51,367 bases of DNA from Clostridium sp. (lineage in GTDB: Bacteria > Bacteroidota > Bacteroidia > Bacteroidales > Bacteroidaceae). The stretch spans positions 1-51,367 of the forward strand of contig JAMPGY010000018.1 of NCBI GenBank assembly GCA_023663705.1, in the 5' to 3' direction. The notes below the pieces were generated by a model. It was not told the DNA's origin. It was given only the letters and a program-made list of their open reading frames with translations, and searched no databases. This document shows positions 7,458 to 26,853 of the stretch, one piece after another. Every line of letters starts with the position of its first letter. The first letter of the stretch is position 1. The position numbers were made by a program, and so were the translations under genes.

Positions 7458-9854
7458 TCAATTCTTCTTCCAAATCTTCCTTAACCCCTTTTGCGAGGAT
7501 GGAATATATTCATATCCACGCCCATAACCATATTTATGTTCCACAGATACATCGTTCAACACAATGTACATATCATGGAATATTCCTTCCTGATGCAAAC
7601 GCTCCAATTCCGGTAAATATCTCCGGTCGATACCACCAACACGAATCACATAAAGGGTAAGGTCAACAACACGATTAACAATACTTGCGTCCACAACAAC
7701 CTGAGCCGGAACATTGTCGATGATGATATAATCATACTGCTTCTTCAATTCCTGAATACACTGTTCCAATCTATCGCTCATTAACAGTTCTGCCGGATTG
7801 GGGGGGGTGATTCCTGCGGGCAGAAAATCAACCATACCTTGCGAATGATCCTTCACAATTAAATCATTCAAATCTGAGATACCACCGGAAAGATATGCAG
7901 TCAATCCACTATCTATATTATTAAGGCCCAACACTTTCGACTGTGTCCGTTTGCGTATATCCGTATCTACTAAAATAACCTTTTTCCCGGTCATAGCCAA
8001 TGTTGCTGCAAAATTTCGTGACACGAACGATTTACCCTCACCTGGTGTCGTTGACGTAAACATAATACATATACCGTTTCCTTTCTTAAGGAAGTCTAAT
8101 GAGAATCTTAATATTCTAAACGCCTCTGTCACTGAATCATTTCCATATTTCGAAACAACTATACCATCTCCTTTATGCCCAGATTCACGCATACGCGGAA
8201 TCTCACCCAATATAGGTATAGACGTATATTTTTCCACATCTTGACGTCCACGAACACCCATATTAAGAACTGCCTTGATTTGAAAGAATACAAATGGCAA
8301 AATAAAGCCCAGTAACAAGGCTATACCTATTACCATAGTCTTACGTGGAGCGATTGGTATCAACAAACCGAATGGTTTTTCCACAATACGGATATTTGCC
8401 TCTGTAATGGCAAGTTGTAATGCTGTTTCCTCGCGCTTGTTCAACAGGAATGTATACAAGACCTCCTTGATTCCCTGTTGGCGGACAATATCCAAAGCCA
8501 TACGTTCCTTTTCGGGCACCGAAGATATTGCCCCCGACACAGAAGCCTCCAACTGCATGGCACGTTGTAACTGCAAATTAAGAGAATGAACATAACCATC
8601 CATGGAAGCAACAATTGCTTCTTTCTGAAACTCAATCGCACGTGCCATATCTGCAACTGCCGGACTGTTTTCACCGGCATTCTGCTCCAACCGGTTATGT
8701 TGAAGTACTAACTCATTATATTTGTTTATTTGGCTTTGTATGCTTTGATCACTTACGCCTAAAATAGAGGGTATCAAAGCATTTTCCTTGCTTTTGTCCT
8801 TGAGATAATCCAAGAGATATTCAGCCACCTTGACCTGTGATTCCAGCTGTATGCTCTTTTCCCGCGCATTCTTTCCCTGTTCCAAATACAGCACTGAATT
8901 TTGCTTCAGGTCTACCAACTGATTCTCTTTCTTAAACTGAGCCAAATGCGTTTCCACCGAGTCCAAATCAGCATTTATCAACCGGATACGTTCTTCTATG
9001 AAGTTGGCCGTACTACGGGCTATCTGATTCTTATCTTCAATGATACTTTGTTTATACACCGATAAGATAGTGGACAATATATCATCGGCACGCTGCACAT
9101 TGGTATCCTTGCAAGTAAGGCGAATCAATGTGCTTTCCTTATCCATCTCCCCCGTGGATATTTTACCACGGTAAATATTTGTTGCCATCTCTACACTGGT
9201 TCGGGAGACCGCAACAGGCGTATTCTCAAAATCCTCCAAATATTCAGGACAAGCATGCAAGCAGATACGCCCTGCTCCGGAAGGCAGGTTTATCTCTTCC
9301 TCCATCTTAACGTCCTTGAAATAATCCAATTCCTTCTTACCCACCGTGATCCGGGAGATTCGTGCCGTCTTGGCATCCTTCATCTCCACCGTGAACGAAA
9401 CCGGTTCGGTAAACGAATCCAAAAAGTCCACCACAAAAGGTTTCTTGTCATAAAGCGAAACCTGCTGTAGGCCTCGTTTGCAGGAATAGGAGACATCCAA
9501 ACGCAACGTACGTACAACTTCCTGCATCAGTTGATTGGATTGCAGGATATAGACCTCGTTTTTTACGCTTGTACCCATCATGACACCATTGAGTTGCATC
9601 AGGGCATCCGTACTCATACTGGATCTTCTGCCTCCGGCTCCATCCTCCTTCACCAGCATCACAGCCTGACGTTGATACACAGAAGGCTTCGTGGCCAGAT
9701 AGAGACGGGCGGCTCCCACACACACGATGACGGAGAGAAGAAACCACTTCCAATGAATGAGGAAAATATCAAGGATGTCGCGCAGGGTGAGACTCTCGTC
9801 CACAGTCTTCAATTGCGACTTGCCTGCTGTATGCTGTGCTGTTTCCATTTGCAT
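7458..9854 (-). CDS. Wzc-like polysaccharide co-polymerase and tyrosine autokinase
   Basis: About 798 residues from the ATG at 9854; the frame is open to a TTG at 9863, but the ATG lies just after the upstream stop and fits better. Order: Wzz domain with a first membrane helix (~38-56, LIHWKWFLLSVIVCVGAA), a long periplasmic coiled-coil part, a second helix (~510-530, MVIGIALLLGFILPF), then a BY-kinase. The kinase shows Walker A (TTPGEGKS, ~605-612), Walker A' (ILVDTDIRK) and Walker B (YIIIDNVP). The C-terminus has a short tyrosine cluster (YGYGRGYEY) that is the probable autophosphorylation site. It sets chain length and couples synthesis to the export lipoprotein upstream. No tyrosine phosphatase gene is nearby. 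Base composition shifts from GC-rich to AT-rich within this gene. Confidence 0.92.
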   Translation of the reverse strand: MQMETAQHTAGKSQLKTVDESLTLRDILDIFLIHWKWFLLSVIVCVGAARLYLATKPSVYQRQAVMLVKEDGAGGRRSSMSTDALMQLNGVMMGTSVKNEVYILQSNQLMQEVVRTLRLDVSYSCKRGLQQVSLYDKKPFVVDFLDSFTEPVSFTVEMKDAKTARISRITVGKKELDYFKDVKMEEEINLPSGAGRICLHACPEYLEDFENTPVAVSRTSVEMATNIYRGKISTGEMDKESTLIRLTCKDTNVQRADDILSTILSVYKQSIIEDKNQIARSTANFIEERIRLINADLDSVETHLAQFKKENQLVDLKQNSVLYLEQGKNAREKSIQLESQVKVAEYLLDYLKDKSKENALIPSILGVSDQSIQSQINKYNELVLQHNRLEQNAGENSPAVADMARAIEFQKEAIVASMDGYVHSLNLQLQRAMQLEASVSGAISSVPEKERMALDIVRQQGIKEVLYTFLLNKREETALQLAITEANIRIVEKPFGLLIPIAPRKTMVIGIALLLGFILPFVFFQIKAVLNMGVRGRQDVEKYTSIPILGEIPRMRESGHKGDGIVVSKYGNDSVTEAFRILRFSLDFLKKGNGICIMFTSTTPGEGKSFVSRNFAATLAMTGKKVILVDTDIRKRTQSKVLGLNNIDSGLTAYLSGGISDLNDLIVKDHSQGMVDFLPAGITPPNPAELLMSDRLEQCIQELKKQYDYIIIDNVPAQVVVDASIVNRVVDLTLYVIRVGGIDRRYLPELERLHQEGIFHDMYIVLNDVSVEHKYGYGRGYEYIPSSQKGLRKIWKKN

Positions 9855-9859
9855 AGTTA

Positions 9860-10675
9860 TCAACGGTTAAGAGAAATGATCAGAGAAACGATGGATACGA
9901 CCATGCCCACCAATGTGCTGCTCACCGAAAGGAGCGTGTAGCTGGTGCTGCCCTTCACGCGCACCGACTTGTTGGGCGCCACGTAGACCACATCGTTCTG
10001 CTGCAGATAGTAGGCCGGAGAAGAGAAGACACTCTGTTCGTCACGCAAATCAATGAGATAGGTGGCACGCTGTCCGTTCTCCTCACGCACCACCAGGACG
10101 TTCTCGCGCTTGGCCGAACTGTTCAGGTCGCCGGCCTTACCTATGGCTTCAAGCACCGTGAGACGCTCTCCCTCAAACTTCTGCATGCCGGGATTTTTCA
10201 CATCACCCAGCACAGTCACCTTGAAACTCATGATTTTGGTGTTTACCACGGCGTCCTTGATATAGTTCCCGTCTATCAACCTATGCTGTATCTCGCGGGA
10301 CAGTTCCACGCAGGTTTTGCCCCCCACATGGACCGTGCCGAAGATGGGAAACTCGATGTTGCCTTCCTTGTTCACCTGAAAGTAGGACACTCCGGAGGAA
10401 ACGTTGGTCGTGTTGCTGTAGTTGCTGTTGGAGCCGCCGCCTATCAAGGTGTTGTTGTTGAACGGCTCTATCAGTTCCTTATTCTTACTGGTCACGGAGA
10501 TGGCCAACTGATCATCGGGCTGTATGCGCAGTTCGAAGGCTTGCTGAATATCGGCCGGAACAGCATACGTGGTCTCCGCTCCCTGCAGGTAGATGATTTT
10601 TTTATCCGAAAGACAGGAGCTGAGTCCTATTGCCGCTACGCCAAGCAGGCATATTATCTTTGCAAGGTGTTTCAT
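9860..10675 (-). CDS. polysaccharide export outer-membrane lipoprotein (Wza-type)
   Basis: A 271-residue lipoprotein. The signal peptide ends in the lipobox LSSC with Cys21. The Poly_export domain starts at about residue 50 (RIQPDDQLAISV) and runs through FGTVHVGGKTCVELS; an SLBB-like segment follows (VTVLGDVKNPGMQKFEGERL), then the VYVAPN turn and a C-terminal hydrophobic stretch (VSSTLVGMVVSIVSLI) typical of Bacteroidetes versions. It forms the export channel for the polysaccharide together with the Wzc-like protein encoded next. The ATG overlaps the stop of the upstream gene by four bases. Confidence 0.92.
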   Translation of the reverse strand: MKHLAKIICLLGVAAIGLSSCLSDKKIIYLQGAETTYAVPADIQQAFELRIQPDDQLAISVTSKNKELIEPFNNNTLIGGGSNSNYSNTTNVSSGVSYFQVNKEGNIEFPIFGTVHVGGKTCVELSREIQHRLIDGNYIKDAVVNTKIMSFKVTVLGDVKNPGMQKFEGERLTVLEAIGKAGDLNSSAKRENVLVVREENGQRATYLIDLRDEQSVFSSPAYYLQQNDVVYVAPNKSVRVKGSTSYTLLSVSSTLVGMVVSIVSLIISLNR

Positions 10676-11844
10676 AATTGCACGTTCTTGTTTTCTGGTA
10701 TAGTATTTTTAGGGTTTTCAAAACGGGTGACAAGCTCCGGATTCCGCAACGAAGCTCTTGTGATGTATCTGTTGATGATCAGGTGCATGACGGTCCAACT
10801 CAGCAAGTCGGCCACCACAATCCACGTACCGGACACGTATTGCGCCAGGAGGGAATTGATGCCAATGAACCACAGGGTGAGCAGGAGCAACACCACCATG
10901 GTGGCATGAGGGCTAAGCCCCGTGCGCATCAGTTTGTGATGGATGTGGCGCTTGTCGGGCAGGAACAGGGGTACCCTGTCGCGATAACGGGCAAACACCA
11001 CACGCAGGATGTCCAGCAAAGGAATGACCAAGGCGCCCAATGCCGGCCACAAGGCACCCGACCTGACAAACAGGCGCCCGCAGTGGAATGTGGAAACGTA
11101 GACCAGCAGATAGGAGATGAAATAGCCCAGCGTCAGACTGCCGCAGTCACCCATGAACACCTTACGCACACGGCCACGCCCACCGAACACATTGAAAAAG
11201 AAGAAGACCATCAGCACACCCAAGATGGAGAGGCACATGGCCACAAATACCGGACGCTCCAGAAAGATGAACATCGCGGCATAGAGAGACAGGGACAGGA
11301 TGCACACCCCGGAGGCCAAGCCGTCGATACCGTCGATGAGATTGACGGCATTGATGACGTATACCACGGCAAAGACAGTGAGCGGGACGCCTATCACCGG
11401 CGGTATGTCGTATATGCCGAGGAAACCGCCCAGTTTGTTTATCCACAATCCGGACAGAGGCAGGCAGGAAGCCGCGATAATCTGTGCGGCGAACTTGCAT
11501 TTGTAACCGATGCCCACCAAGTCGTCGGCCAGACCGATGAGAAACAATAGCATGGCACCTACGCCCATGGCCTGCATGCGCAGGAAAGTAGTCGTGTCCG
11601 TGGATGTGACCTGCACATCCAGGCTCACCACACACAAGGCGTTGAACAGAAAGAGACACATCACCGCCAACGGCAGAAAGCAGAAGCCGCCCAACCGGGG
11701 CACGGGAGTGCTGTGCACCTTGCGCTGATCCGGCTGGTCCATCAGTTTCTTCTTGTACGAGATAGAGATGATTTTGGGCATCAACAGGCTCCCCATCAAC
11801 AATGAACAAGCGAACGTCAAGGCATATAAGATATATAATTCCAT
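10672..11844 (-). CDS. WecA/MraY-family undecaprenyl-phosphate sugar-1-phosphate transferase
   Basis: A 390-residue membrane protein with about 11 helices. It carries the family motifs RKVHSTPVPRLGG (41-53), LADDL (105-109) and NAVNLIDGIDGLASG (165-179), then FMGDCGSLTLGY and the cytoplasmic HIHH loop (DKRHIHHKLMRTG). It starts the repeat unit by moving a HexNAc-1-phosphate from UDP-sugar to undecaprenyl phosphate. As the first gene of the operon it probably provides the priming step. GlcNAc is the usual substrate of WecA, but the exact sugar is not shown. A TAAATTTG -7 box lies 23 bp upstream. Confidence 0.92.
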   Translation of the reverse strand: MELYILYALTFACSLLMGSLLMPKIISISYKKKLMDQPDQRKVHSTPVPRLGGFCFLPLAVMCLFLFNALCVVSLDVQVTSTDTTTFLRMQAMGVGAMLLFLIGLADDLVGIGYKCKFAAQIIAASCLPLSGLWINKLGGFLGIYDIPPVIGVPLTVFAVVYVINAVNLIDGIDGLASGVCILSLSLYAAMFIFLERPVFVAMCLSILGVLMVFFFFNVFGGRGRVRKVFMGDCGSLTLGYFISYLLVYVSTFHCGRLFVRSGALWPALGALVIPLLDILRVVFARYRDRVPLFLPDKRHIHHKLMRTGLSPHATMVVLLLLTLWFIGINSLLAQYVSGTWIVVADLLSWTVMHLIINRYITRASLRNPELVTRFENPKNTIPENKNVQL

Positions 11845-11874: not shown

Positions 11875-11943
11875 ATACAAATAAATGACATAGCAGACCT
11901 TTTGATTCATAATCTTGACAAGAAGACGGCGATGCTTACTATA

Positions 11944-11991
11944 ATAGCCCGATAACAGCAATGCCTACAGACATTCGCCGTTCCGGGCTAT
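11944..11991 (-). terminator. hairpin at the end of the tetR-efflux operon
   Basis: ATAGCCCG (11944-11951) and CGGGCTAT (11984-11991) form a perfect 8-bp stem, and the enclosed bases can form a further, imperfect stem. It lies 22 bp after the PII-like gene's stop. No U-tract follows on the minus strand, so it may protect the 3' end or act with Rho rather than terminate alone. Confidence 0.45.
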
Positions 11992-12012
11992 AACAAGAAA
12001 TCCACACAGGAC

Positions 12013-12324
12013 TCAGATGGTTTTCTCCACGTTCCAGACAAAGGCACGCAGACCGAGCTGCACGGTCTCCACATCCATGGCGTGGAGAGCTTCGAGCAAC
12101 GGATCCACCTTGGTCTCATCCACCACCGTGAGGATGGCCGAGCACATCGAGGGCCAGGCATGCGATCCGTAGTGGGGTTCCCCTGTGCGGGTGCCCCGCC
12201 CCTGCACCTGAGGCAGGTAGCTGAAGCCACGGCAGTTGAGCCGATCGAGCAACGAGATGATGCGCTCGTAAAAGGCTTGGTCGAAGGTGATCAATACTGA
12301 TTTCATAGCGTTCTGTTTTTTCAT
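12013..12324 (-). CDS. PII-like small protein linked to an RND pump
   Basis: A protein of 103 residues (97 if the second ATG at 12306 is used). The beta-alpha-beta order and length fit the PII/CutA-like ferredoxin fold: SVLITFDQAFYERIISLLDR, then a glycine- and charge-rich loop (QVQGRGTRTGEPHYGSHAWP) where PII proteins carry the T-loop, then SAILTVVDETKVDPLLEAL and a last strand. PII proteins sense nucleotides or metabolites and bind membrane transporters. It starts 6 bp after the RND gene's stop, so the two are probably co-translated. No uridylylation-type tyrosine motif of GlnB is seen. The fold is inferred from pattern, and the ligand is unknown. Confidence 0.65.
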   Translation of the reverse strand: MKKQNAMKSVLITFDQAFYERIISLLDRLNCRGFSYLPQVQGRGTRTGEPHYGSHAWPSMCSAILTVVDETKVDPLLEALHAMDVETVQLGLRAFVWNVEKTI

Positions 12325-12330
12325 TCATAT

Positions 12331-15300
12331 TCAAACGTCCGTCTCTCCATCACGACGTGCCTGATAACGGCCGCCCTTCACATGGGTCATCTTGTCCTTG
12401 TGCGACTGATAGTAGTCGTTCAGCTCACGCGTGCGTCTCAACCGGCGACGGGCAAAGCGGACACCGTTGCCGGCAAACATACAGTAGGCCACCGGCACGA
12501 AGATGAGCGTCATCACGGTGGAAACGGCCAGTCCACCAATCACCGCACGACCCAACGGGCGCCACATCTCGGCTCCCACTCCCGTGCCCACCGCCATCGG
12601 CACCATGCCCAGGATGGTGGTGAGCGTGGTCATCAGCACGGGACGCAGACGGCTGCGACCGGCCGTAGTGACCGAACGGATGATACCCATGCCGCGCTCG
12701 CGGCACAACAGAATGTAGTCGATGAGCACGATACCGTTTTTCACCACGATACCGGCCAGCATGATGGCGCCGAGCATGGACATGATGTTGAGTTTCTCGC
12801 CCCACAGGAACAAGGCCAGCATGATGCCACTGATGGCAAACGGGATGGAGAACATGATGATGAACGGATAGGTAAGCGACTCGAACTGGGCGGCCATAAC
12901 GATGTAGACCAGAATGATGATGAGCATGAAAAGCATTCCCAAGTCCTGGTTGGAGTCCTGCTGATCCTCGTAAGAACCGGCCACCTTGATGTTGATGCCC
13001 TGGGGGATGTCCATGCTCTCGATGATTTCCCTTCCGACGGCTACACCCTCGCTCAGGGCTATACCGGAGAGCACGGCACTCACCGTGACGATGCGCTCGC
13101 GGTCCTTGCGCTCGATGGTGGGCGGAGCGTATCGTTCGACCACCACACCCACGTCTTTCACCCGAACGGGTTTGCCGGCTGCGTTGTAGAGCACCACGTT
13201 CTCCAGGTCCTCGATGCTCGTGCGGCTGTCCGGCTCGTAGCGCACCTTTATCTTGTATTCGTCTCCATCCTCACGGTAATAGGTGGACGAGGCTCCGTTC
13301 ACCCGATTGCGCAGACTGGTGGCGGCGGTGGAGAGATTCAGTCCGTTGAGCGCCAGCTTCTCGCGGTCAAAATCCACCTGATATTCGGGCTGATAGTCGC
13401 TGCGGCTGATGTTCACCTGCCCCACTCCCGGCACGGCTTCCATACGGGCTTTCAGTTCGGCCGCCACGCGGTCGGTCTCGGTGAAGTCGTATCCGTAAAT
13501 CTCGAAGTCGGCGGCCGACTGTCCGGCCATGCCTCCGTTTCCTCCGCCATACATCACGTCATATTTGGCCAGTTCGGGGCGCATCTTCAGATCGGCACGC
13601 ATCTGGTCGCAGACGTCGAGCAGCGAGATGCTGCGCTCCGTCACAGGCACCATCTGTATGTTGAAACTGATGATGTGGGAACCGTTGTCGCTCAGCGAAC
13701 TGAATGTGTCGTCCTCTCCGGCCTGTCCCACACGGAAGTTGATGGCCTGCATGGCCGCCCCGTAGCGTTCCTGCCACAGACCGGACATCTCCAGCGCCAA
13801 GGCCTCGGCCTTCTCTACCCTCGTGCCCACGGGCAACTGCATCGTGATGCCGATGCGTCCGCTGTCCTGCGGCGGAAAGAACTCCGACTTGATGCCTCCG
13901 GCCAGCATGAAACTGGCCACCACCAGCAACAGACAGGCACCCACTGTGGCCCAACGATGGCGTGTAGCCCAGTCCAGACGGGCGGCATACCAATTGTCCA
14001 GCCGGTCGAGCATACGCTGCACCGGCGTGTAGAGGAACAAGAAGAGCTTGCTCTGCTTCTTCTGCAGGCGCAGCAATTGCGAGCACATCATGGGTGTAAA
14101 ACTCAGGGCCGACACCGTGGAGATAGTCATGATGACGCACATCATCCATCCCAACTGCTTGAACAGCACACCGGACATACCGGTCACCATGGTCAGGGGG
14201 AAGAACACGGCTATCATGGTGAGTGTGGAGGCAATGACGGAGATAGCCACCTCGTTCGTGCCATGCACGGCGGCCTGTTTCGGCTCGGAACCGCGTTCGA
14301 TGTGGGTGGTGACGTTCTCGAGCACCACTATGGCATCGTCCACCACATTGCCGATGGCGATGCTCAGACACGACAGGGATATCATGTTGAGCGAGCCGTC
14401 CGTCACCAGCAGATAGATGAACGAGGCTATCAGCGACATGGGAATGGTGATGCAGATGATGACCGTGGCACGCCAGCGACCCAGGAATACGAACACCACG
14501 AGGATGACAAACAACAGGGCGTAACAGATGGTCTCCCACAGCGACCCCACGGTGTTCTCGATGTTATCGGATGTGTTGACGATGACACCCAGTTTGACGT
14601 CGGAAGGCAACTGCTTCTGCAGGGTGGGCAGCATGCGCTCCACCTTTTTGGAAATCTCCACCGAGTTGGCACCCGACTGTTTCTGCACGATAATCATGGC
14701 ACCCTGACGCCCGTTGTTGAACGCACGCTGGGCACGCTCCTGCACACCGTCGTGTACGCGGGCCACATCGCGCAGATAGACCGGCGCACCGTTGTAGGTG
14801 CCTACGATGATGTCGAGCATCTGCTGCGGGTCTTTAAACTCCCCCTCCACACGCAAGGCGTAGGTGTTGCTGCCCACATCGAACGAGCCGCCGGGCACGT
14901 TGCGGTTTTCCATGGATATGGCCTGGCTGACGGCTTCCACCGTCATGCCGTAGGCTTCCATCTTCAGCGGATCCATGTAGACGTTGATCTCGCGCTCGGG
15001 CGCTCCGGAGATAGACACCGTGCCCACACCGTCTATACGGGCCAGGGGATTGGCCACACCGTCGTCCAGTATCTTGTAGAGTGCATTCTGGCTCTCGCCG
15101 GCCTGCACGGACAGCATCATGATGGGAATCATGTCGGTGGAGAACTTGAAGATGATGGGTGTGTTGGCATCATCGGGAAGCGCCGAGCTCACCATATCCA
15201 GCTTGTCGCGCACGTCGTTGGTGAGCACTTCAATGTCGTTGCCGTATTCAAATTCGAGTGTCACCACGGAGGTGTTCTCGCGCGAGGCCGAAGTGATGTG

Positions 15301-15534
15301 TTTCAGATGTTCCACGGAGTTCAGCGTGTTCTCCAGCGGACGGGTCACGTTGGTCTCGATATCCGAGGCCGACGCACCTGAATAGGTGGTGATCACCATA
15401 ATGGTGTTCGTGTCTATGTCCGGGTACAGGTCGATCGGCAAACGGGACAGGGAGAACAATCCCAGTATCATCACCGCTACAAAACAGAGCGTGGTCATAA
15501 TCGGTTTTTTCACCGCTCCTTCATACAGACTCAT
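12331..15534 (-). CDS. RND efflux pump inner-membrane transporter (HAE type), pump 1
   Basis: 1067 residues with the AcrB architecture: an N-terminal helix (KKPIMTTLCFVAVMILGL), a first periplasmic half starting YPDIDTN, a block of helices with IGNVVDDAIVVLENV in TM4 (the proton-relay double Asp), a second periplasmic half, and VVKNGIVLIDY in TM10 with the relay Lys. All three relay residues are present, so it should be proton-driven. The substrate is probably an organic toxic compound rather than a metal, because the sequence follows the multidrug (HAE) type and lacks Met-rich metal relays. It lies between its adaptor gene (38 bp) and the PII-like gene (6 bp). Confidence 0.93.
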   Translation of the reverse strand: MSLYEGAVKKPIMTTLCFVAVMILGLFSLSRLPIDLYPDIDTNTIMVITTYSGASASDIETNVTRPLENTLNSVEHLKHITSASRENTSVVTLEFEYGNDIEVLTNDVRDKLDMVSSALPDDANTPIIFKFSTDMIPIMMLSVQAGESQNALYKILDDGVANPLARIDGVGTVSISGAPEREINVYMDPLKMEAYGMTVEAVSQAISMENRNVPGGSFDVGSNTYALRVEGEFKDPQQMLDIIVGTYNGAPVYLRDVARVHDGVQERAQRAFNNGRQGAMIIVQKQSGANSVEISKKVERMLPTLQKQLPSDVKLGVIVNTSDNIENTVGSLWETICYALLFVILVVFVFLGRWRATVIICITIPMSLIASFIYLLVTDGSLNMISLSCLSIAIGNVVDDAIVVLENVTTHIERGSEPKQAAVHGTNEVAISVIASTLTMIAVFFPLTMVTGMSGVLFKQLGWMMCVIMTISTVSALSFTPMMCSQLLRLQKKQSKLFLFLYTPVQRMLDRLDNWYAARLDWATRHRWATVGACLLLVVASFMLAGGIKSEFFPPQDSGRIGITMQLPVGTRVEKAEALALEMSGLWQERYGAAMQAINFRVGQAGEDDTFSSLSDNGSHIISFNIQMVPVTERSISLLDVCDQMRADLKMRPELAKYDVMYGGGNGGMAGQSAADFEIYGYDFTETDRVAAELKARMEAVPGVGQVNISRSDYQPEYQVDFDREKLALNGLNLSTAATSLRNRVNGASSTYYREDGDEYKIKVRYEPDSRTSIEDLENVVLYNAAGKPVRVKDVGVVVERYAPPTIERKDRERIVTVSAVLSGIALSEGVAVGREIIESMDIPQGINIKVAGSYEDQQDSNQDLGMLFMLIIILVYIVMAAQFESLTYPFIIMFSIPFAISGIMLALFLWGEKLNIMSMLGAIMLAGIVVKNGIVLIDYILLCRERGMGIIRSVTTAGRSRLRPVLMTTLTTILGMVPMAVGTGVGAEMWRPLGRAVIGGLAVSTVMTLIFVPVAYCMFAGNGVRFARRRLRRTRELNDYYQSHKDKMTHVKGGRYQARRDGETDV

Positions 15535-15572: not shown

Positions 15573-16589
15573 TCATTTCACGACCTCCACGCCGATGCCG
15601 TCAGCCAATTTGTTCTGTCCGGCCACCACCACCTGCGCTCCGGCGGGCACTCCGCTCACAATCTCGTATTCGGCACCCAGACGACGCCCCACCTCCACCT
15701 TGTTGTGGGTCACCTTGCCATCGGCATACACATACACGTAGCGGTCGCCGGCTCCCATCTGTTTCACCACAGCCTCATCGGGCACCACGGTGCGTTCGGC
15801 CACTCCATAGGTGATCGTGGCACGGGCGAACATGCCCGGACGGACACGCCTGTCGGCATTGGCCAGCGTGATTTCCACCGGGAACGTGTGCGACACGGGA
15901 TCTATCGTGGGATAGACGATGCTCACCTTGCCGGCGAAGCGTTCGTCGCCATAGGTGTCGAGCCTCACATCCACCGGCATACCGGTCTTCACGCGGGGAT
16001 ACCAGGTTTCGGACACGTGGATGGTCATCTTCACCGGCGAGAGTGTCTCCACCGTCAGGATGGGATTGGCACCGGCCATGTCGCCGTCGTCGTAGTTGCG
16101 CGCGGTCACCACTCCGTTGATGGGGCTCACCAGCCGGGTGTTCACAAGCATGTTGTTGTACATGGTCTCGTTCACGTCCAGCTGTGTCTTGATGTTGTCC
16201 CACTCGGCCTTGCTGGCTCCGCCTACCTTATACAGTTCGTCGATGCGGTTGAACTCCACCCTTTGGTTCTCTATCTGGAGTTTGAGCTGATGCAGACCGG
16301 AAGCGTCCATCTGCACCAGTGTCTGTCCTTTTCTGACGGGGTCGCCCACCTCCACGTGGATTTTCTCTATGCGCAGGGCGGAATTGGAGGATATGTTGTT
16401 CCTCACATCGCTCTCCACCGTGGCCGTGTATTCCTCAATCTGCGGCACCTCGCGCACCTCGCTGAGTGCCAGCCTCACCTTGGGCTTTTCTTCCTGCCGT
16501 GGCGCGGCCGTCTCTTCCTTCTTGCCGGAGCAAGCGGCCAGGGCGACTGCCAGAGACGCCAAGGCCAACATGTGCATGTATCTTTTCAT
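15573..16589 (-). CDS. RND membrane-fusion protein (lipoprotein adaptor), pump 1
   Basis: A 338-residue adaptor of the HlyD/AcrA type. A short lipoprotein signal ends at Cys20 (LAAC), then ATVESDVRNNISSNSALRIEKIHVEVGDPVRKGQTLVQMD forms the barrel-sandwich half motif (in two parts), followed by a short helical hairpin and TRLVSPINGVVTARNYDDG, the second half. Further on are the beta-barrel and membrane-proximal domains (PVDVRLDTYGDERFAGKVS, VRPGMFARATI). It joins the transporter encoded downstream to the TolC-type channel encoded upstream. Spacing is 21 bp from the OMF gene. Confidence 0.93.
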   Translation of the reverse strand: MKRYMHMLALASLAVALAACSGKKEETAAPRQEEKPKVRLALSEVREVPQIEEYTATVESDVRNNISSNSALRIEKIHVEVGDPVRKGQTLVQMDASGLHQLKLQIENQRVEFNRIDELYKVGGASKAEWDNIKTQLDVNETMYNNMLVNTRLVSPINGVVTARNYDDGDMAGANPILTVETLSPVKMTIHVSETWYPRVKTGMPVDVRLDTYGDERFAGKVSIVYPTIDPVSHTFPVEITLANADRRVRPGMFARATITYGVAERTVVPDEAVVKQMGAGDRYVYVYADGKVTHNKVEVGRRLGAEYEIVSGVPAGAQVVVAGQNKLADGIGVEVVK

Positions 16590-16610: not shown

Positions 16611-17963
16611 TTACTGCTTGTTTGTGGCGTATTCGCCGGCACCGGTCACATAGTCGAGATCCGCACGGGCCACCAGATAGTCGTAGATAGACTGGTTGAA
16701 GGCCAGGCGCGCCTGGGTGAGCGCCACCTCGCTGCTGTTCATCTCCAGCACCGTGCCCTTGCCCACTTCGTAACGTTTCTCAGCAATCAGCAGCCCCTTC
16801 TCGGCCTGAGCCATCGACTCGCGGTTGCTGCTCACCTGAGCGGCGCTGGCCTGCATGTTGTCCAGACAGCTCTGTGCCTGCATGCCCAGCTGCCGCTCGG
16901 TGTGAAGGCGGTTTTCGGCCAATTGGCGCAACTGTATGCGCGTTGTTTTCAGCTTGGTGAAGTTGGAGGCACGGTAGAGAGGGACAGACAGGGTGAGCCC
17001 GAAGGTGGAACTGGGGAACCAGTCGTAGTGCCACAACTCGAAGTTGTTGTTGTAGAGTGACTGGTACTGATAGGCGTAATTGAAAGCCAGCGTTGGGATA
17101 AAGTTGGTCTTCTGGATCTTCAGATTGTGCTCCAACAGCCTTCCGTTCAAATCGATCTGCCTCAATTGAGTGTTGCCGGCCAGACTGATTTCACCGTCCG
17201 TCCGATGTTCGGACACGCGTTCTTCATAACGGGCCAGACTGTCGTCTATCTCCACCAGCAGTTCCTTGTCCGAAACGCCCAGCAGCACCTTCAGTTGCAG
17301 ACGGGCCAGCGAAATGGCATTTTCCGCCGCCACCACACCGGGCTTGAGATTACGCATCTGCACCTCGGCCGAAATCTTGTCGTACTCGCTCACGCTGCCC
17401 TGCCGGTACTTGGCACTGACCACATTGAAGTTTCGTTCGCTGTGGTCGTAACTGCGACGCAGGACATCGTAGCTGTCCTGGGCCAGCATCAGCTGATAGT
17501 AGGCCTTGGCCACCTGGTTGACCACATCCTGACGGGAACCGCGGCTCTTCTCCACCGCCAGTTCAATGTCCGTCCGGGTCATTTTCATCGTGCGGTACAC
17601 GGCCGGAGCATACAGGGGAAGATTGACCGACAACGCACCGTTCCACGTGCTGGTGCCGTCCTGCCCCATCTTGAACTTGTTGCCCCCTAAGTTCATCGTG
17701 GCCGCCTTGACGGTATAGGTCATTCCACCGTTCAGTTCCACCGTTGGCAACAGGCTTTGCCAAGCCTCCTTGCGGCTCACCTTTTTCAGTTCGATGTCCT
17801 GCTCGGCCACATGGATGACGGGATTGTCGGCCAGCGCTATCTCCACCGCCCGATCCAGTGTCAGCCTCAGCGTGCGCGGCGCCTGTTGTGCCCACGTCAG
17901 GCAGGCACAGGGCATCACCGCCGCCCACACCAACCAACGCCTCAGTCCAGATTTTCTTTTCAT
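16611..17963 (-). CDS. TolC-family outer-membrane efflux protein, pump 1
   Basis: 450 residues with a signal peptide (RRWLVWAAVMPCACLTWAQQ) and two repeated OEP halves: LTLDRAVEIALADNPVIHVA at about 32-51, and in the second half LTLSVPLYRASNFTKLKTTR and a long coiled coil ending with VALTQARLAFNQSIYDYLVA. This is the trimeric channel for the pump. It follows tetR by 18 bp and precedes the adaptor gene by 21 bp, an OMF-MFP-RND order common in Bacteroidetes. Confidence 0.93.
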   Translation of the reverse strand: MKRKSGLRRWLVWAAVMPCACLTWAQQAPRTLRLTLDRAVEIALADNPVIHVAEQDIELKKVSRKEAWQSLLPTVELNGGMTYTVKAATMNLGGNKFKMGQDGTSTWNGALSVNLPLYAPAVYRTMKMTRTDIELAVEKSRGSRQDVVNQVAKAYYQLMLAQDSYDVLRRSYDHSERNFNVVSAKYRQGSVSEYDKISAEVQMRNLKPGVVAAENAISLARLQLKVLLGVSDKELLVEIDDSLARYEERVSEHRTDGEISLAGNTQLRQIDLNGRLLEHNLKIQKTNFIPTLAFNYAYQYQSLYNNNFELWHYDWFPSSTFGLTLSVPLYRASNFTKLKTTRIQLRQLAENRLHTERQLGMQAQSCLDNMQASAAQVSSNRESMAQAEKGLLIAEKRYEVGKGTVLEMNSSEVALTQARLAFNQSIYDYLVARADLDYVTGAGEYATNKQ

Positions 17964-17981: not shown

Positions 17982-18611
17982 TTAGGTAAATTCTATCCGA
18001 TTGACGGCAAGGAAGTTTTCCAGCACCCGTAATCCATCGGCCGTACAGATGCCCCGGATATTCACCAGAAAACTGGACGAATAGAGTTCCGACACGGGAA
18101 ATCCGTGACACGCCTCCGTGCCGAACACAAAGCGGAACGCAGCGTCCTGCATCAGCAGGAAGATACGCAGATTGACATCCTGCCGGAACAACCCCTGCCG
18201 CACGCCTTTGGCCAGACACTCCAGCGCTTTGCCCGCATTGTGGTCGTGCACCTGACGCTGGTAGGCCTCCACCAGAGGATAACGCCTTAAGTCATCATAA
18301 AACCGGGGATTGACATGCTTGACACACCGGTATTCGAGCAAAAAGGAATGGAGTATGAGGTCGAGCACGTTGTCCGTCTGCTTCTCCACAGCCTCCATCT
18401 CCCGCCGGAATTCATCGTGGAAATGCACGGACACGGCCAGCAACAAGGCTTCCTTGTTCTCAAACATCTCGTAGAGCGTGCGCTTGGAGATGGCCAGCCC
18501 CTCGGCTATGTCGTCCATCTTCACCGGACGTATGCCGTGCTCCATAAACGCGGCTCCGGCACAAGCGATCACCTCCTGCCTCAACTTTTCCCTGTCTGTA
18601 CTCTCTTTCAC
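17982..18611 (-). CDS. TetR-family regulator of efflux operon 1
   Basis: About 209 residues from the GTG at 18611; the frame is open to a TTG at 18650, which would give 222. The N-terminal TetR helix-turn-helix is clear (VKMDDIAEGLAISKRTLYEM, then FENKEALL). The C-terminal ligand domain is divergent. It is the first gene of an operon with the OMF, adaptor, transporter and PII-like genes, so it probably represses its own operon and is released by a pump substrate. A 13-bp palindrome (18690-18702) lies upstream and is a good operator candidate. Start choice is uncertain because neither candidate is ATG. Confidence 0.88.
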   Translation of the reverse strand: MKESTDREKLRQEVIACAGAAFMEHGIRPVKMDDIAEGLAISKRTLYEMFENKEALLLAVSVHFHDEFRREMEAVEKQTDNVLDLILHSFLLEYRCVKHVNPRFYDDLRRYPLVEAYQRQVHDHNAGKALECLAKGVRQGLFRQDVNLRIFLLMQDAAFRFVFGTEACHGFPVSELYSSSFLVNIRGICTADGLRVLENFLAVNRIEFT

Positions 18612-18689
18612 GACTTGCTGTTTTTCATGCCAATGTTCATCCGGCCACAAATGTATACATAAAACTTTTGTCGCAAGGAAAGTTTTCTA

Positions 18690-21293: not shown

Positions 21294-22652
21294 TTACAAA
21301 TCAACAAGTTTTCCGGCAGCCTTGCGATAATCCACACCGGCCAGATAAAGACGGAAATAGGCATCCACCTTGCTCTCGTAGGCCTGTTGCCACAAGGCCT
21401 GCGCTTCCAGCACGTCCGACAGCGTCTCCACACCGGCCCGGTAGCTCTTCTCGCTCAGCAGACGGTTCTCCTCGGCCTGCTCCAGCGACCTCATGGCCAG
21501 TTCGCACTCCAGCCGGGCTTCGTCCAGATTGTTGCAGGCACGGCTCAATTCCAGCATCATCTGCTCGTTGAGGTCCTCCTGCTCGGCACGGGCCTGCTCC
21601 AGTTTCGCACGGGCAGCCTTCACCTTTCCGGTGCGCTCGCCGAAGTGGAAAAGCGGGATGGACACGGAGAGCATAGCGGAAAAGTTGGCACCCTCAAACA
21701 GCTTCTCGTCGTTTACCTTGATACCGTTCAGGTAGTCGTAGGCTCCCACCAGTCCCACCTGCGGCAACAGGTCGGCACGGCTGTACTTCACCTGCAGGGC
21801 AGCCGCCTCGGTCTGTTTCTCCAGCAAGGCATACTCGGGTCGTGCACTAAGCATGGCCCCACCCTCCTGCAACAGGCCATCCACCTCGGGCAAAGACGAC
21901 GAGACCGTCAGGCTGTCGGTAAGAGGGCGTCCCATCACGTGGCATAGATTCATCATAGCCAACCGACGGGCATTCTCGGCCTTTCGCAGCGACAGCTCGC
22001 TCTCGTTGAGCTTCACCTTCACCTTCAGCTCATCGTTGGTCAGCTTCAACCCGTGCTTCACGGCACTCTGCACGTTGCGCAGCAGTTCTTCGAGCAACTG
22101 CCTGTAGGTGTAGGCCACACGGGTCATCTCCTGCGCCTTCACCACTTGCACATAGGCGCGGTCTGCCGCCACGATCACTTCCGTCTCGGTGAGTGCCTCC
22201 TGCAGACGCGCCGCCTCGAGCTGGCATTTGGCCAATCCGTAACCGGCACGTATCTTACCTCCGGTGTAGAGCGGCTGCTTCAGGGTGACTCCGGCCATAA
22301 ACACCGGCCCCACCTCGTAGTCCAGTCCCACACCGGGAAAATAGGCAAAGGAGCCTCCGGGTGCCAGCTGCCCCGTGGGCAGCGGCTGCAACACGGGCAG
22401 CAATCCGCCGGGTATCTGCAGTCCGCCGTCGGCCGTGCTGTAGGCAGCCCCGCCGGTGATTTTCAGATCGGGAAAGAACAGGGCACGCGTGCTTCTGAGC
22501 GTGTAAGCCGCCGCCTCGGTGCCACGTGCGGCAGCGGCACGCTTCTTATTGTATTGCAAGGCCGACTCGCGGCATTGTTCCATCGTCAGTTCCTGCGCCT
22601 GCACCGCAATCATCGGCAAGGCAAGCGCCACAGTCAGTATCAGAGCTTTCAT
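21294..22652 (-). CDS. TolC-family outer-membrane efflux protein, pump 2
   Basis: 452 residues with a signal peptide (LILTVALALPMIAVQAQE) and the start LTMEQCRESALQYN, then two OEP repeats with long helices; the second contains LSVSIPLFHFGERTGKVKAA and ends VLEAQALWQQAYESKVDAYF. It should form the outer-membrane channel of pump 2. Its start codon overlaps the transporter stop by one base, so the gene is the last of the MFP-RND-OMF operon. It differs clearly from the pump 1 channel. Confidence 0.92.
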   Translation of the reverse strand: MKALILTVALALPMIAVQAQELTMEQCRESALQYNKKRAAAARGTEAAAYTLRSTRALFFPDLKITGGAAYSTADGGLQIPGGLLPVLQPLPTGQLAPGGSFAYFPGVGLDYEVGPVFMAGVTLKQPLYTGGKIRAGYGLAKCQLEAARLQEALTETEVIVAADRAYVQVVKAQEMTRVAYTYRQLLEELLRNVQSAVKHGLKLTNDELKVKVKLNESELSLRKAENARRLAMMNLCHVMGRPLTDSLTVSSSLPEVDGLLQEGGAMLSARPEYALLEKQTEAAALQVKYSRADLLPQVGLVGAYDYLNGIKVNDEKLFEGANFSAMLSVSIPLFHFGERTGKVKAARAKLEQARAEQEDLNEQMMLELSRACNNLDEARLECELAMRSLEQAEENRLLSEKSYRAGVETLSDVLEAQALWQQAYESKVDAYFRLYLAGVDYRKAAGKLVDL

Positions 22653-25600
22653 CAGTCGGTTATTTTAACGTGAAAAAAGATTGCATATAGAATGGGTATG
22701 AACAGCAGCGTGACAATCGTGCCGAAGAGCAGACCGCCCATGATGGTGGCAGCCAGCGAGCCGAACATGGCATCGGGCAACAGAGGTATCATGCCGAGTA
22801 TCGTGGTGAGCGAAGCCATCATCACCGGCCGCAGACGGCTCTGCGAACTGCCGATCAGGGCGTCCACCGGAGAGCGTCCCTGCGAGAGTTGCAGGTCGAT
22901 CTCGTCCATCAGCACAATGCCGTTCTTCACGATCATGCCGATCAGTCCCAGCGCTCCCACTATGGCCACGAAACCGAACGACTTGCCACTGAGTATCATC
23001 GTCAGCACCACACCCACCAGCAACATCGGGATGCAACAGAAGATGATGGCCGGCTTGCGGTAGTCCTTGAACAGCATGATGAGGATGGTGATCATGATGA
23101 TGACTGCCAACGGCAGATTGGCGAACAGATATTTCATGGATTGCGTACTGGCCTTACGCTCGCCTTCCCACACGAAGCTGTAACCCTCCGGCAGAGGTAT
23201 CTTTTCAATTTCCTCCGCTATGGCCTGACGGGCTTTCTCTGTCTCCAGCCCCGGCACGGGAGAGCACTGGGCACGCTGGGCACGCTGTCCGTTGTAGCGG
23301 GGCACCACGGGATCCTCCCAGCGCACGTCAATACCCCGGCTCACCTGCTCGAGCGGAGTGGTGCCCATCACGGCTTCCACCACATCCTCCTTGGAGAGGG
23401 TACCGGTCTTCAGCTTGAGCAACATGCTTTCGTCCATCAGTCCGTTGACCGAGGGGAGCGTGGAGAACACCTGCACACTCTCCAGATTGTCCACCGGCTG
23501 TCCGGCCTCGTCCACCGTTTTCAGATAGAGGTTGTTGCTATGGATGCCCTCGTAGAAAGTGCCCACCGGCACACCGCCCGTGGCCGTGAGCAGCGACAAA
23601 CTGACATCCGTGCGGCTCAGGCCGATGCTGCGGGCCACGCTTTGGTCGTAGTCCACGGTCAGCACAGGCACCTGCGGATCCCAGTCGGAAGTGACCAGGC
23701 ACACGGCATCGCTCCGCTTCATGATGGCGCGTGCACTGTCGGTGAGTGCATGGAGCACGGCCGGATCGGGTCCCATGAAGACGGCCTCTATGGGGAATTT
23801 CTTGAACATCAGATTGTAGCGTTTGAGCTTGACATAAGCATCGGGATAGGCCTCGGAGAGACGGGTCTGTATGTCGTCCATATTCTCCACCAGCGACTCG
23901 GGAGTGTCGAAATCGATAATGAGCTCGCCGTAGGACAACGAGGGGTTGGGGATGCTGCGCACCAGATTGTAGCGACAGGGAGCGCCACCGGTGGAGGTGG
24001 TCACATGCTTCACCTCAGGACGCGTCTTCAGATAGGCTTCGATCTCGGCCAGATCGCGCTGCACACGGGTGTAGTTGGTGCCCTCCGGCAATTTGTATTC
24101 CATATACAGCTGGTCGTACACCATGTCGGGGAAGAATCCCTGCTTCATATAGCGGTAACCGAATCCCGTCAGGACAAGCAGGCCCACCATACCGGCCGTG
24201 AACAGCCAGCGATGTCTGATGCCGCCCCGGAGCAAACGGGCCAGCAGATTGTAGAAACGCCCCTCGTACACCATGCCGCCATCGGCCGTGGTGGTCTTCA
24301 GGGCCGGATGCAGCATGCGGTCGGCCATGAGAGGGACATGTGTGAGCGCCAGCACCCAACTGAGCATCAGCGACACGGCCAACACGATGAAGAGGTCGCG
24401 CACATAGATGCCGGCAGTGTCGGGCGAAAGGAAGATGGGCAGGAAGGACACGATGGCTATCAGTGTGGCGCCCAACAAGGGCATGGCCGTGCGGCGCCCG
24501 ATGGCGGTCAACGCCTCTTTCCGGGGCACTCCCCTCTGCATATCCACCTGTATGCCGTCCACAATGACAATGGCATTGTCCACCAGCATTCCCATGGCCA
24601 GGATGAAAGCCCCGAGCGACACACGTTGCATCGTGCCGTCGGCCACACCCAGCAACAGAAACGAACCGAAGACAATGATGACCAGACTGGCCCCGATGAT
24701 CAGTCCGCTCTTAAAACCCATCGTTATCATCAGTATGATGACCACGATGAGCACCGACTCGATGAGGTTGATGATGAAGGTGCTCAGTGCCGTGGACACG
24801 CGCTCGGGCTGGTAGAACACCTTGTGGTATTCCGTGCCTGCGGGCAGACGTTCCTCCTGTATCTGGCGGAGCTTCTCCTCCACACGGGCTCCCACCTTGA
24901 TGACATCCGCATCCGATGCGGCCGACATGACAATGCCCAGCGCATGCTGTCCGTCGTAGGCCAGGGAGTTGCGCACCGGTGTTTCTTCCGCCTTCTCGAT
25001 GTGGGCGATGTCCGACAGCCGGAGCTGGTCGTTCTCATGGCCCTGCACCAGCATGCGGCCTATGTCCTCCACCGTGTGGAACTTGTCGCTCACGGTGACG
25101 CGTATCCGCTCATCGCCGCTGTCGTAGTATCCGCCATACACGGTTTTGTTCTGCCCGTTGAGCGTGGCCAGCACCTCGGCCGGCTTCACGCCCAGCCCCG
25201 CCATCTTGTCCTGATAGAGGGATATGTTGATACACTCTTCGTTCCGGCCGTAAATGTCCACGCGGGCCACGCCTTCCACCTCGTCCATCTCGCGTTTGAT
25301 GAGTTCGGCATAGTCGGACAACTCGCGCAGGGAAAGCCCGTCGCCCGTCAGGGCGTAAAACATACCGTAGACAGTGCTGAAGTCATCCCTCACCTGCGAG
25401 GGGCCGGCACCGGCCGGCATGGAAGCCTGCGCATCGGTCACCTTTCGGCGCAACATGTCCCAGCATTGTTCCACCTGCTCGTTGGGAATCGTGCTTTTCA
25501 GTTCCACCTGTATCAGCGAAAGATCGTTGTAGGAGTAACTCTCCACGTTGTCCACCTCACCCATCTTGCGGATGCTCTTCTCCAGCACATCGGTCACCTC

Positions 25601-25786
25601 CAGTTCCACCTGATGAGCCGAGGCTCCGGGATACACCGTGACCACCATGGCCAGCTTCGCTTTGATCTCAGGATCCTCGAGTTTACTCATATCGTAGGCC
25701 GAGAACGCACCTCCGATCAGCAGTATGGCAACCAGAAACAAGACCAGCTTGCGGTTGCGGAATGCCCATTGTCCCCAGTCCATCAT
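22652..25786 (-). CDS. RND efflux transporter, pump 2
   Basis: 1044 residues with the RND layout: an N-terminal helix (FRNRKLVLFLVAILLIGGAF), periplasmic halves starting KLEDPEIKAKLAMVVTVYPG, TM4 with AMGMLVDNAIVIVDGI and TM10 with GMIVKNGIVLMDEIDL. The TM4 pair is Asp-Asn rather than the AcrB Asp-Asp, while the TM10 lysine is kept; this Asp-Asn form occurs in one branch of HAE transporters. Proton-driven export of small organic compounds is probable, and substrates are unknown. It overlaps the adaptor gene by four bases and the OMF gene by one, so all three are tightly coupled. Confidence 0.92.
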   Translation of the reverse strand: MMDWGQWAFRNRKLVLFLVAILLIGGAFSAYDMSKLEDPEIKAKLAMVVTVYPGASAHQVELEVTDVLEKSIRKMGEVDNVESYSYNDLSLIQVELKSTIPNEQVEQCWDMLRRKVTDAQASMPAGAGPSQVRDDFSTVYGMFYALTGDGLSLRELSDYAELIKREMDEVEGVARVDIYGRNEECINISLYQDKMAGLGVKPAEVLATLNGQNKTVYGGYYDSGDERIRVTVSDKFHTVEDIGRMLVQGHENDQLRLSDIAHIEKAEETPVRNSLAYDGQHALGIVMSAASDADVIKVGARVEEKLRQIQEERLPAGTEYHKVFYQPERVSTALSTFIINLIESVLIVVIILMITMGFKSGLIIGASLVIIVFGSFLLLGVADGTMQRVSLGAFILAMGMLVDNAIVIVDGIQVDMQRGVPRKEALTAIGRRTAMPLLGATLIAIVSFLPIFLSPDTAGIYVRDLFIVLAVSLMLSWVLALTHVPLMADRMLHPALKTTTADGGMVYEGRFYNLLARLLRGGIRHRWLFTAGMVGLLVLTGFGYRYMKQGFFPDMVYDQLYMEYKLPEGTNYTRVQRDLAEIEAYLKTRPEVKHVTTSTGGAPCRYNLVRSIPNPSLSYGELIIDFDTPESLVENMDDIQTRLSEAYPDAYVKLKRYNLMFKKFPIEAVFMGPDPAVLHALTDSARAIMKRSDAVCLVTSDWDPQVPVLTVDYDQSVARSIGLSRTDVSLSLLTATGGVPVGTFYEGIHSNNLYLKTVDEAGQPVDNLESVQVFSTLPSVNGLMDESMLLKLKTGTLSKEDVVEAVMGTTPLEQVSRGIDVRWEDPVVPRYNGQRAQRAQCSPVPGLETEKARQAIAEEIEKIPLPEGYSFVWEGERKASTQSMKYLFANLPLAVIIMITILIMLFKDYRKPAIIFCCIPMLLVGVVLTMILSGKSFGFVAIVGALGLIGMIVKNGIVLMDEIDLQLSQGRSPVDALIGSSQSRLRPVMMASLTTILGMIPLLPDAMFGSLAATIMGGLLFGTIVTLLFIPILYAIFFHVKITD

Positions 25787-26853
25787 AACAGTCCTCCCAC
25801 ATTAGTTTCCGACTTGCTTTGCATAATCGTCACGCGGTCGCCATCAGCCAGATGGTGCATGCCGGAAGTCACCACCAAAGCACCGGCCCGTAAGGCTCCG
25901 GTCACCACAGCCCGGCCGTCGGTCTGCACCCGCTCCACCGTCACGGGAGTTTTCCTCACCACACCGCTTCCGGAGTCGCAAAGATAGATATGGCTCTTCC
26001 CGTTTTCAGCTACCACGGCCGTGGCCGGCACCCACATACGGCTATCGGCACTACCGCCGCCCCGTATGGTCACCCAGGTTGCCATGCCCGGTGTAGGCTT
26101 GGTATCGGCCGTACCGGCCAGCCGGAAACGTACGGTGTAGAGCTGGTTGGCATTGGCCCGGGGCATGATGTTGATCAGCTCCAACGGGAAGGTCTGGCCG
26201 GGATAGACGTCAAACACGCAATCAAACGACGAGAATTGCTCCCGACGGATATAGGCTGCGGCCGGAATACTGATCTCTACTTCCGGACGATCGGTACACA
26301 ACAACGACAGCACAGGCATGCCGGCCGCCACCGTCTCGCCTCCATCGAAGAGCCGTTGCTGGATATAGCCGTTGAACGGCGCATAGATTTTGGTATAGGA
26401 CAACTGGTTGCGATGATTTTCGCGCTTGGCCGTGATCTGCTTCAATCCGTAGCGAGCCTTGTCATAGGCAACGGCAGTGGCACCGTTTTCCTTATACAGG
26501 GCCTCCACGCGGTCGGCCTCCGACTTGATGCTTTGGTATTCCGCTTCCGTGGCCGACAATTGCACTTTGTAGTCCGTGTCATCCATCTCAGCCAGCAACT
26601 GCCCCTTACGCACATATTCTCCTTCTTTCACAGCTACACGCGACAACGTGCCGCTCACACGGAAAGCAAGCCGTACGTCCTGCGCAGCCTTCACCCTGCC
26701 GGGATACTGCCACACGAAGTCCTGACCGCACGTCATCACCGTGTCCACCTTTACGGCCAATGTCACGGCCTCTTCTTTCGCTTTCTTGCCGTCCGAGCAA
26801 GAAACCCCGATTGTAGCCACCAAGGCTAACAGAAAACCTATTCTCTTTTTCAT
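25783..26853 (-). CDS. RND membrane-fusion protein (lipoprotein adaptor), pump 2
   Basis: 356 residues. A lipoprotein signal ends at Cys19 (GVSC), then comes YPGRVKAAQDVRLAFRVSGT, the first lipoyl half (VKEGEYVRKGQLLAEMDD), a helical hairpin, the second half (TKIYAPFNGYIQQRLFDGGE), and the beta-barrel with PTPGMATWVTI. It links the RND transporter to the OMF. First gene of the pump 2 operon, with a perfect -7 element 28-36 bp upstream of its start. It diverges from the araC-type gene across 169 bp. Confidence 0.92.
   Translation of the reverse strand: MKKRIGFLLALVATIGVSCSDGKKAKEEAVTLAVKVDTVMTCGQDFVWQYPGRVKAAQDVRLAFRVSGTLSRVAVKEGEYVRKGQLLAEMDDTDYKVQLSATEAEYQSIKSEADRVEALYKENGATAVAYDKARYGLKQITAKRENHRNQLSYTKIYAPFNGYIQQRLFDGGETVAAGMPVLSLLCTDRPEVEISIPAAAYIRREQFSSFDCVFDVYPGQTFPLELINIMPRANANQLYTVRFRLAGTADTKPTPGMATWVTIRGGGSADSRMWVPATAVVAENGKSHIYLCDSGSGVVRKTPVTVERVQTDGRAVVTGALRAGALVVTSGMHHLADGDRVTIMQSKSETNVGGLL

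Follow-up and report, generated by a model that had tools for sequence, protein, structure and literature searches.

In Bacteroidales, one branch of the resistance–nodulation–division (RND) efflux pumps carries a gene for a small PII-like protein next in order wherever the flanking DNA permits a judgement, and the two genes form a real and remarkably strict partnership. We describe it from a 51,367-nucleotide stretch, hereafter the window (contig JAMPGY010000018.1 of assembly GCA_023663705.1, deposited as Clostridium sp. and assigned by GTDB to the Bacteroidaceae), in which the PII-like gene closes a five-gene unit running from a tetR gene through those for an outer membrane factor (OMF), a periplasmic adaptor or membrane fusion protein (MFP) and the RND permease. 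An earlier sequence-only reading of the window had proposed that the protein has a PII fold, accompanies RND genes and adjusts the pump after translation in response to nucleotides. The fold and the company are borne out below, pump control is retained as the best reading, and the nucleotide response is left without support. Neither of the two outcomes that the earlier reading had named as fatal to it, a structure other than the PII fold or homologues lying mostly apart from RND genes, was observed.

Homologues of the protein sit beside RND genes wherever upstream DNA can be judged. Counted by distinct gene, with one type 2 set included, 202 of 206 family genes have an RND gene at most 1500 bp upstream in the same orientation, and the four without an RND call (L057, L134, L138 and L246) lie 0–249 bp before the end of their sequence. 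This figure is a recount across overlapping locus sets. Matches of the NCBIfam NF045581 type at E ≤ 0.001 occurred in 35 of 392 genomes of the phylum, 22 above the cut-off, and in 202 of 393 genomes of the order, every one above the cut-off. An RND gene stood upstream at 50 of 51 over-cut-off loci (window included), at 78 of 80 named loci (the best 80 of 584) and at 99 of 100 further loci, the last being a non-random choice from the order-wide matches in which 20 are earlier genomes fetched at greater length; the 8 fetched below-cut-off loci gave no RND match. Because all locus sets were selected via the PII-like protein, these counts show the pump to be predictable from the protein. The usual order at linked loci is OMF–MFP–RND–PII. 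Across 195 distinct type 1 pairs, the gap from RND to PII-like gene is negative in 9, 0–30 bp in 94, 31–100 bp in 77 and above 100 bp in 15. At one locus (L044), a 138-codon open frame separates the two genes, and the pair is still linked.

The reverse direction was covered by an RND protein search of 31 genomes, the window's own and related ones. Nine RND genes scored at least 958 bits and the next best 558, a sharp break. The PII-like gene accompanies all nine and, judged by coordinates, an RND fragment in G392 as well. It stands beside none of 33 RND genes at or below 558 bits, a set comprising the window's second RND and a selection from the list, with just 71 bp of downstream DNA, too little to judge, in the case of L174. 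That second RND (22652–25801, minus strand; 239.7 bits against the first) lacks a PII-like gene and so serves as a built-in negative control; it is followed by a long open reading frame (ORF), maybe an outer-membrane factor, and unlinked pumps in general are, by eye, mostly followed by an OMF-like ORF. The window's own genome holds 10 RND matches and one match of the PII-like protein. A pump of the linked clade was present in two of nine searched genomes of the window's genus, and the pump is therefore accessory in that genus.

A tree of 133 RND proteins placed all 93 type 1 linked pumps in one clade and the 8 type 2 linked pumps in a separate one, each with support 1.0. The smallest clade holding both includes 14 to 19 unlinked pumps, depending on the outgroups tried; the link was therefore either gained twice or lost in between. 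The RND of L149 is sister to the type 2 linked clade and has no PII-like gene, which makes it a candidate loss. L185 carries an RND operon with a type 1 PII-like gene and, about 7 kb away, another whose PII-like gene is of type 2; in this type 2 pair a 322-aa ORF separates the pump from the PII-like gene.

The window protein is a member of NF045581 ('PG0541 family transporter-associated protein'), which it matches with 113.8 bits where 45 is the cut-off; all 54 members of one family set (A2) match it at E ≤ 0.001. The family and its transporter link are thus already recorded in the database, under a name and without an explained function. An AlphaFold2 model of the 97-aa protein (mean predicted local distance difference test score, pLDDT, 84.9) has PII topology, with predicted elements β1 (2–9), α1 (10–22), β2 (28–34), a loop (35–54), β3 (55–62), α2 (64–80) and β4 (87–91), that is, the double β-α-β fold of the PII superfamily, in which a long loop joins strands 2 and 3. 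The best folds listed for the model include CPII, GlnK and SbtB. The P-II profile PF00543 scored 24.5 on the 103-aa and 24.8 on the 97-aa form, against a gathering score of 25, and matched 35 of 35 scanned family proteins at E ≤ 0.1.

Besides PII, the sequence-only reading had named CutA and DUF3240 for comparison, and neither gave a family match to the window protein at E ≤ 1. CutA is also missing from the 50 fold matches listed, a list that does not exclude a CutA fold. DUF3240 (PF11582) had a single match among 35 family proteins, with an E of 0.073; it occurs in 2 of 296 phylum genomes, and the one case inspected (L201), which carries GDGK and RIRTGE, is a classic PII, so DUF3240 was dropped as an RND-linked relative.

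The loop at the T-loop position is highly conserved: 35 family proteins all share G36, G38, G42, P44, H49, W51 and P52, and nearly all share N55. The loop pattern is matched by 121 of 123 family proteins (119 distinct, window included), and seven type 2 proteins have a similar loop with Arg at H49 and Phe or Tyr at W51. In the model, residues 41–50 are predicted at a pLDDT of about 58. A search of the PDB with the loop fragment returned nothing beyond chance (best E 4.2), and an SbtB-like T-loop motif that we had suspected is for that reason not claimed.

The signatures by which PII proteins are usually recognized are missing. None of the 123 family proteins has the B-loop GDGK or the C-terminal PII signature, the uridylylation motif Y[KR]G[AS][AE]Y or the C-loop RxR (a pattern of our own making), and in an alignment with PII the window protein ends before the RxR point. 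Given these absences, the protein is unlikely to read ATP in the classic PII manner, and the proposed response to nucleotides is not supported. T29 is retained in 90% or more, and the residue aligned with PII Lys90 is mostly basic; with these residues kept, an atypical site is possible, where a different ligand might bind at the same place as in PII.

An alternative is an enzyme or metal-binding protein, with the loop His, Trp and Asn forming an active or metal site for efflux-linked processing. SAM-AMP lyases, for instance, have a PII-like fold. They are mentioned in print alongside the PII superfamily (PMC12255297). The invariance of H49, W51 and P52 and near-invariance of N55 suit such a role, yet H49 is Arg in the seven aligned type 2 proteins and the loop drew only chance matches from the PDB, and we hold this explanation to be quite improbable. 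A general metabolic PII protein that merely happens to lie in an efflux operon appears equally improbable. In its favour, the window's own genome (G000) gave no canonical PII by PF00543 at E ≤ 1, and canonical PII was present in 13 of 14 control genomes. The sensitivity of that search is limited, as it did not pick up the window's PII-like gene either, and its result is no proof of absence; further, the RND linkage is complete where judgeable, the next gene varies and the nitrogen-PII signatures are absent from all 123 family proteins.

RND pumps are trimers. The PII-like protein would be cytosolic and would serve only the pump encoded in the same operon; it would form a trimer and dock on the three-fold cytosolic face of the RND trimer via its three conserved loops. 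A small ligand bound at the base of the loop or close to it, and probably not read via the classic PII ATP site, would determine whether the protein raises or lowers the activity of the pump. Such control would form a fast layer below TetR. That a dedicated PII-type protein docks on and modulates the pump of its own operon strikes us as an evenly balanced proposition, and it is still the best reading of the genomic linkage, the expected symmetry of the two partners and a fragile covariation signal.

For the covariation analysis, 196 full-length pairs were available. The 188 type 1 pairs among them comprise 183 distinct RND proteins, and in 185 of the 188 an MFP piece is present as well; columns with at least 30% gaps were removed and near-identical sequences down-weighted. 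In the 185 operons (effective number of sequences, Neff, 99), 13 of the top 20 PII–RND pairs fell in RND cytosolic segments, whose borders are our own reading by AcrB homology, against 17% expected (p 0.0002, entropy-matched shuffles), compared with 2 of 20 when the MFP served as control partner. Across twelve 70% subsamples, the mean cytosolic fraction was 0.52 for the PII-like protein and 0.23 for the MFP, and in 82 farther relatives it was 0.40 and 0.25, respectively. With 114 operons (Neff 57), the top 300 and 1000 PII–RND pairs were significant (p 0.017 and 0.0005), the MFP control giving 0.07 at both depths and the OMF a null result.

Several results weigh against docking on the pump. 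With the 114 operons, the top 20, 50 and 100 pairs were not significant (p 0.33, 0.49 and 0.14), and with the 185 operons the MFP control likewise showed enrichment among the top 300 and 1000 pairs (p 0.012 and 0.014). The 103 nearest relatives carried no signal (0.15 of the top 20 vs 0.20 for the MFP), and of the 14 cytosolic pairs among the top 30, loop positions account for 3 and so do not dominate. RND positions specific to the linked clade show no enrichment at the cytosolic face (5 of 37; 4 of 20 for those common to both clades). Conservation of the cytosolic relative to the periplasmic part is mildly higher in both linked groups (1.16, vs 0.89–1.02 in three unlinked groups), and relative to the membrane helices it is not distinctive (0.88–0.89 vs 0.80–0.92). 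No RND–PII fusion appeared among the matches listed in the phylum and order searches. Taken as a whole, the covariation is suggestive of contact with the pump's cytosolic face, with a signal that is fragile and fails in smaller subsets. A shared docking tail on the RND was rejected as a universal dock, since subclades differ in the C-terminal tail past the last helix.

The unvarying linkage and the conserved loop suit a fixed partner as well as they do a regulator. The protein might therefore act in the assembly or stability of the RND trimer, or in delivery to it, either as a chaperone or by carrying substrate from the cytosol, and answer to no signal. Its fold, however, is that of PII signalling proteins, and RND pumps outside the linked clades manage without it (0 of 33); we rate this alternative as improbable, if somewhat less so than the enzymatic and metabolic ones.

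The proposed modulation of the pump by a PII-like protein has partial parallels among known systems. With GlnK–AmtB the window pair shares the PII fold and a gene adjoining that of a trimeric transporter (PMC10710835); it differs in lacking the uridylylation site, GDGK and C-terminal RxR, and in that the partner is an exporter rather than an ammonium channel. SbtB, which binds adenyl nucleotides (PMC10991534), is 9% identical to the window protein in alignment, and its partner SbtA is a bicarbonate transporter. CPII of Thiomonas binds ADP/AMP and bicarbonate, according to the titles of PDB entries 5d4l and 5ds7, and the rest of its loop differs from that of the window protein. AcrZ and WatS1 are likewise small proteins that modulate an RND pump, the former a single membrane helix around AcrB and the latter 55 aa long, and neither is described as PII in the accessible part of the review (PMC10710835). 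The window protein belongs to the PG0541 family, whose NCBI label already calls it transporter-associated; the accessible portions of the literature found attach no mechanism, structure or pump clade to it.

Physiological leads come from two genera. The Porphyromonas pump XepCAB is, we presume, the one encoded beside PG0541. XepCAB is treated as an efflux pump (PMC4790292), and PG_0539 has been tied to efflux (PMC12382797). PG0541 itself figures as a table entry for a conserved hypothetical protein (PMC1887533) and as an up-regulated hypothetical gene with a value of 2.1291 in a text that contains neither PG0539 nor PG0540 (PMC4493947). In Bacteroides thetaiotaomicron, the BT_2792–BT_2795 operon encodes a bile-tolerance efflux pump (PMC10994844), the pump itself being given as BT2793–2795 (PMC11078008); BT_2792, the remaining gene of the four, stands where the PII-like gene would be expected and may be its counterpart, as a candidate by position. 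An acrR–RND–tolC locus with BT2687 (PMC12669032) was set aside, as its gene numbering suggests another gene order.

The known regulation of RND pumps is mostly transcriptional. To it a review adds a few small membrane proteins (PMC10710835), and in the open-access literature searched, as far as its texts were accessible, no report was found in which a PII protein acts on an RND pump. If the proposal is true, drug and bile efflux would be tied to cell state in abundant gut anaerobes, and the pump would be, as far as the literature searched extends, the first drug exporter among PII targets. The arrangement suggests that pump activity, beyond its production, is controlled from the cell interior, and it offers PII-type control a new class of target that can be put to the test. 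More tentatively, and on balance rather doubtfully, PII-type control may reach multidrug RND exporters across Bacteroidales, where a dedicated trimeric PII-like protein, having lost the classic motifs, would switch a pump of bile and xenobiotics after translation and would sense another cytosolic signal with its conserved loop, perhaps a pump substrate, lipid or bile compound.

The genes of the unit are listed in Table 1. MFP, OMF and TetR genes lie upstream of the RND gene on the same strand, with gaps of 38, 21 and 18 bp. The best solved match of the permease, which has VVDDAIVV at 397 and VKNGIVL at 931, is MdtB (9lyq), and the MFP also matches HlyD_D23.

Table 1. Features of the efflux operon in the window
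Feature	Position	Strand	Basis or remark
PII-like protein, PG0541 family	12013..12306	(-)	97 aa; NF045581 match, AlphaFold2 PII topology, alignment-based start
Conserved loop codons at T-loop position (residues 35-54)	12145..12204	(-)	GxGxxxGEPHxGxHxWP
RND permease, AcrB-like multidrug type	12331..15534	(-)	1067 aa; ACR_tran 3.2e-251
Periplasmic adaptor (MFP)	15573..16589	(-)	TIGR01730 RND_mfp, 197 bits vs cut-off 94.9
TolC-like outer membrane factor (OMF)	16611..17963	(-)	PF02321 OEP 5.4e-55
TetR-family regulator	17982..18650	(-)	PF00440 TetR_N 1e-10
Stem-loop after PII-like gene, probable transcript end	11939..11996	(-)	RNA fold

In its longest form, the PII-like ORF spans 12013–12324 (103 aa), and its start at 12324 lies 6 bp past the RND stop, which is the spacing that the sequence-only reading had given. 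The internal ATG at 12306, at whose MK nearly all relatives begin in the alignments, is the start common to the family and lies 24 bp past the RND stop. The description of the two genes as translationally linked was too strong, as overlap between the profile start and the RND stop is confined to the 9 of 195 distinct type 1 pairs noted above and the median gap is 28 bp. The claim that the gene ends its operon fares better. Bases 11920–12015 (96 bases) fold at −34.7 kcal/mol overall, a value given without a shuffled control, and no clear U-tract follows the stem-loop. Downstream DNA sufficed for the comparison in 64 relatives, where the next ORF of at least 120 aa lies on the same strand in 36 and on the opposite strand in 28, and the largest homologous group of these mechanically called ORFs comprises 9. 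Since a hairpin follows the stop and the next ORF is unconserved, the PII-like gene is probably the last member of the transcription unit.

The TetR gene brings in a further alternative, in which the protein is a soluble sensor acting on transcription, through TetR or another regulator, and not on the pump protein. A TetR-like gene does lie upstream in many linked operons, and PII proteins are able to act on regulators. In many other linked loci, such as L084, L085, L107, L111 and L132, however, nothing upstream on that strand matched the TetR of the window (such a comparison would miss a regulator that is divergent or dissimilar), and the RND–PII pair persists there, with the RND as the invariant partner. 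Action on transcription in place of the pump thus seems to us a poor prospect.

Downstream of the unit and on the same strand, ORFs at 7458–11844 (minus strand) resemble, by eye, a polysaccharide export and sugar-transferase cluster.
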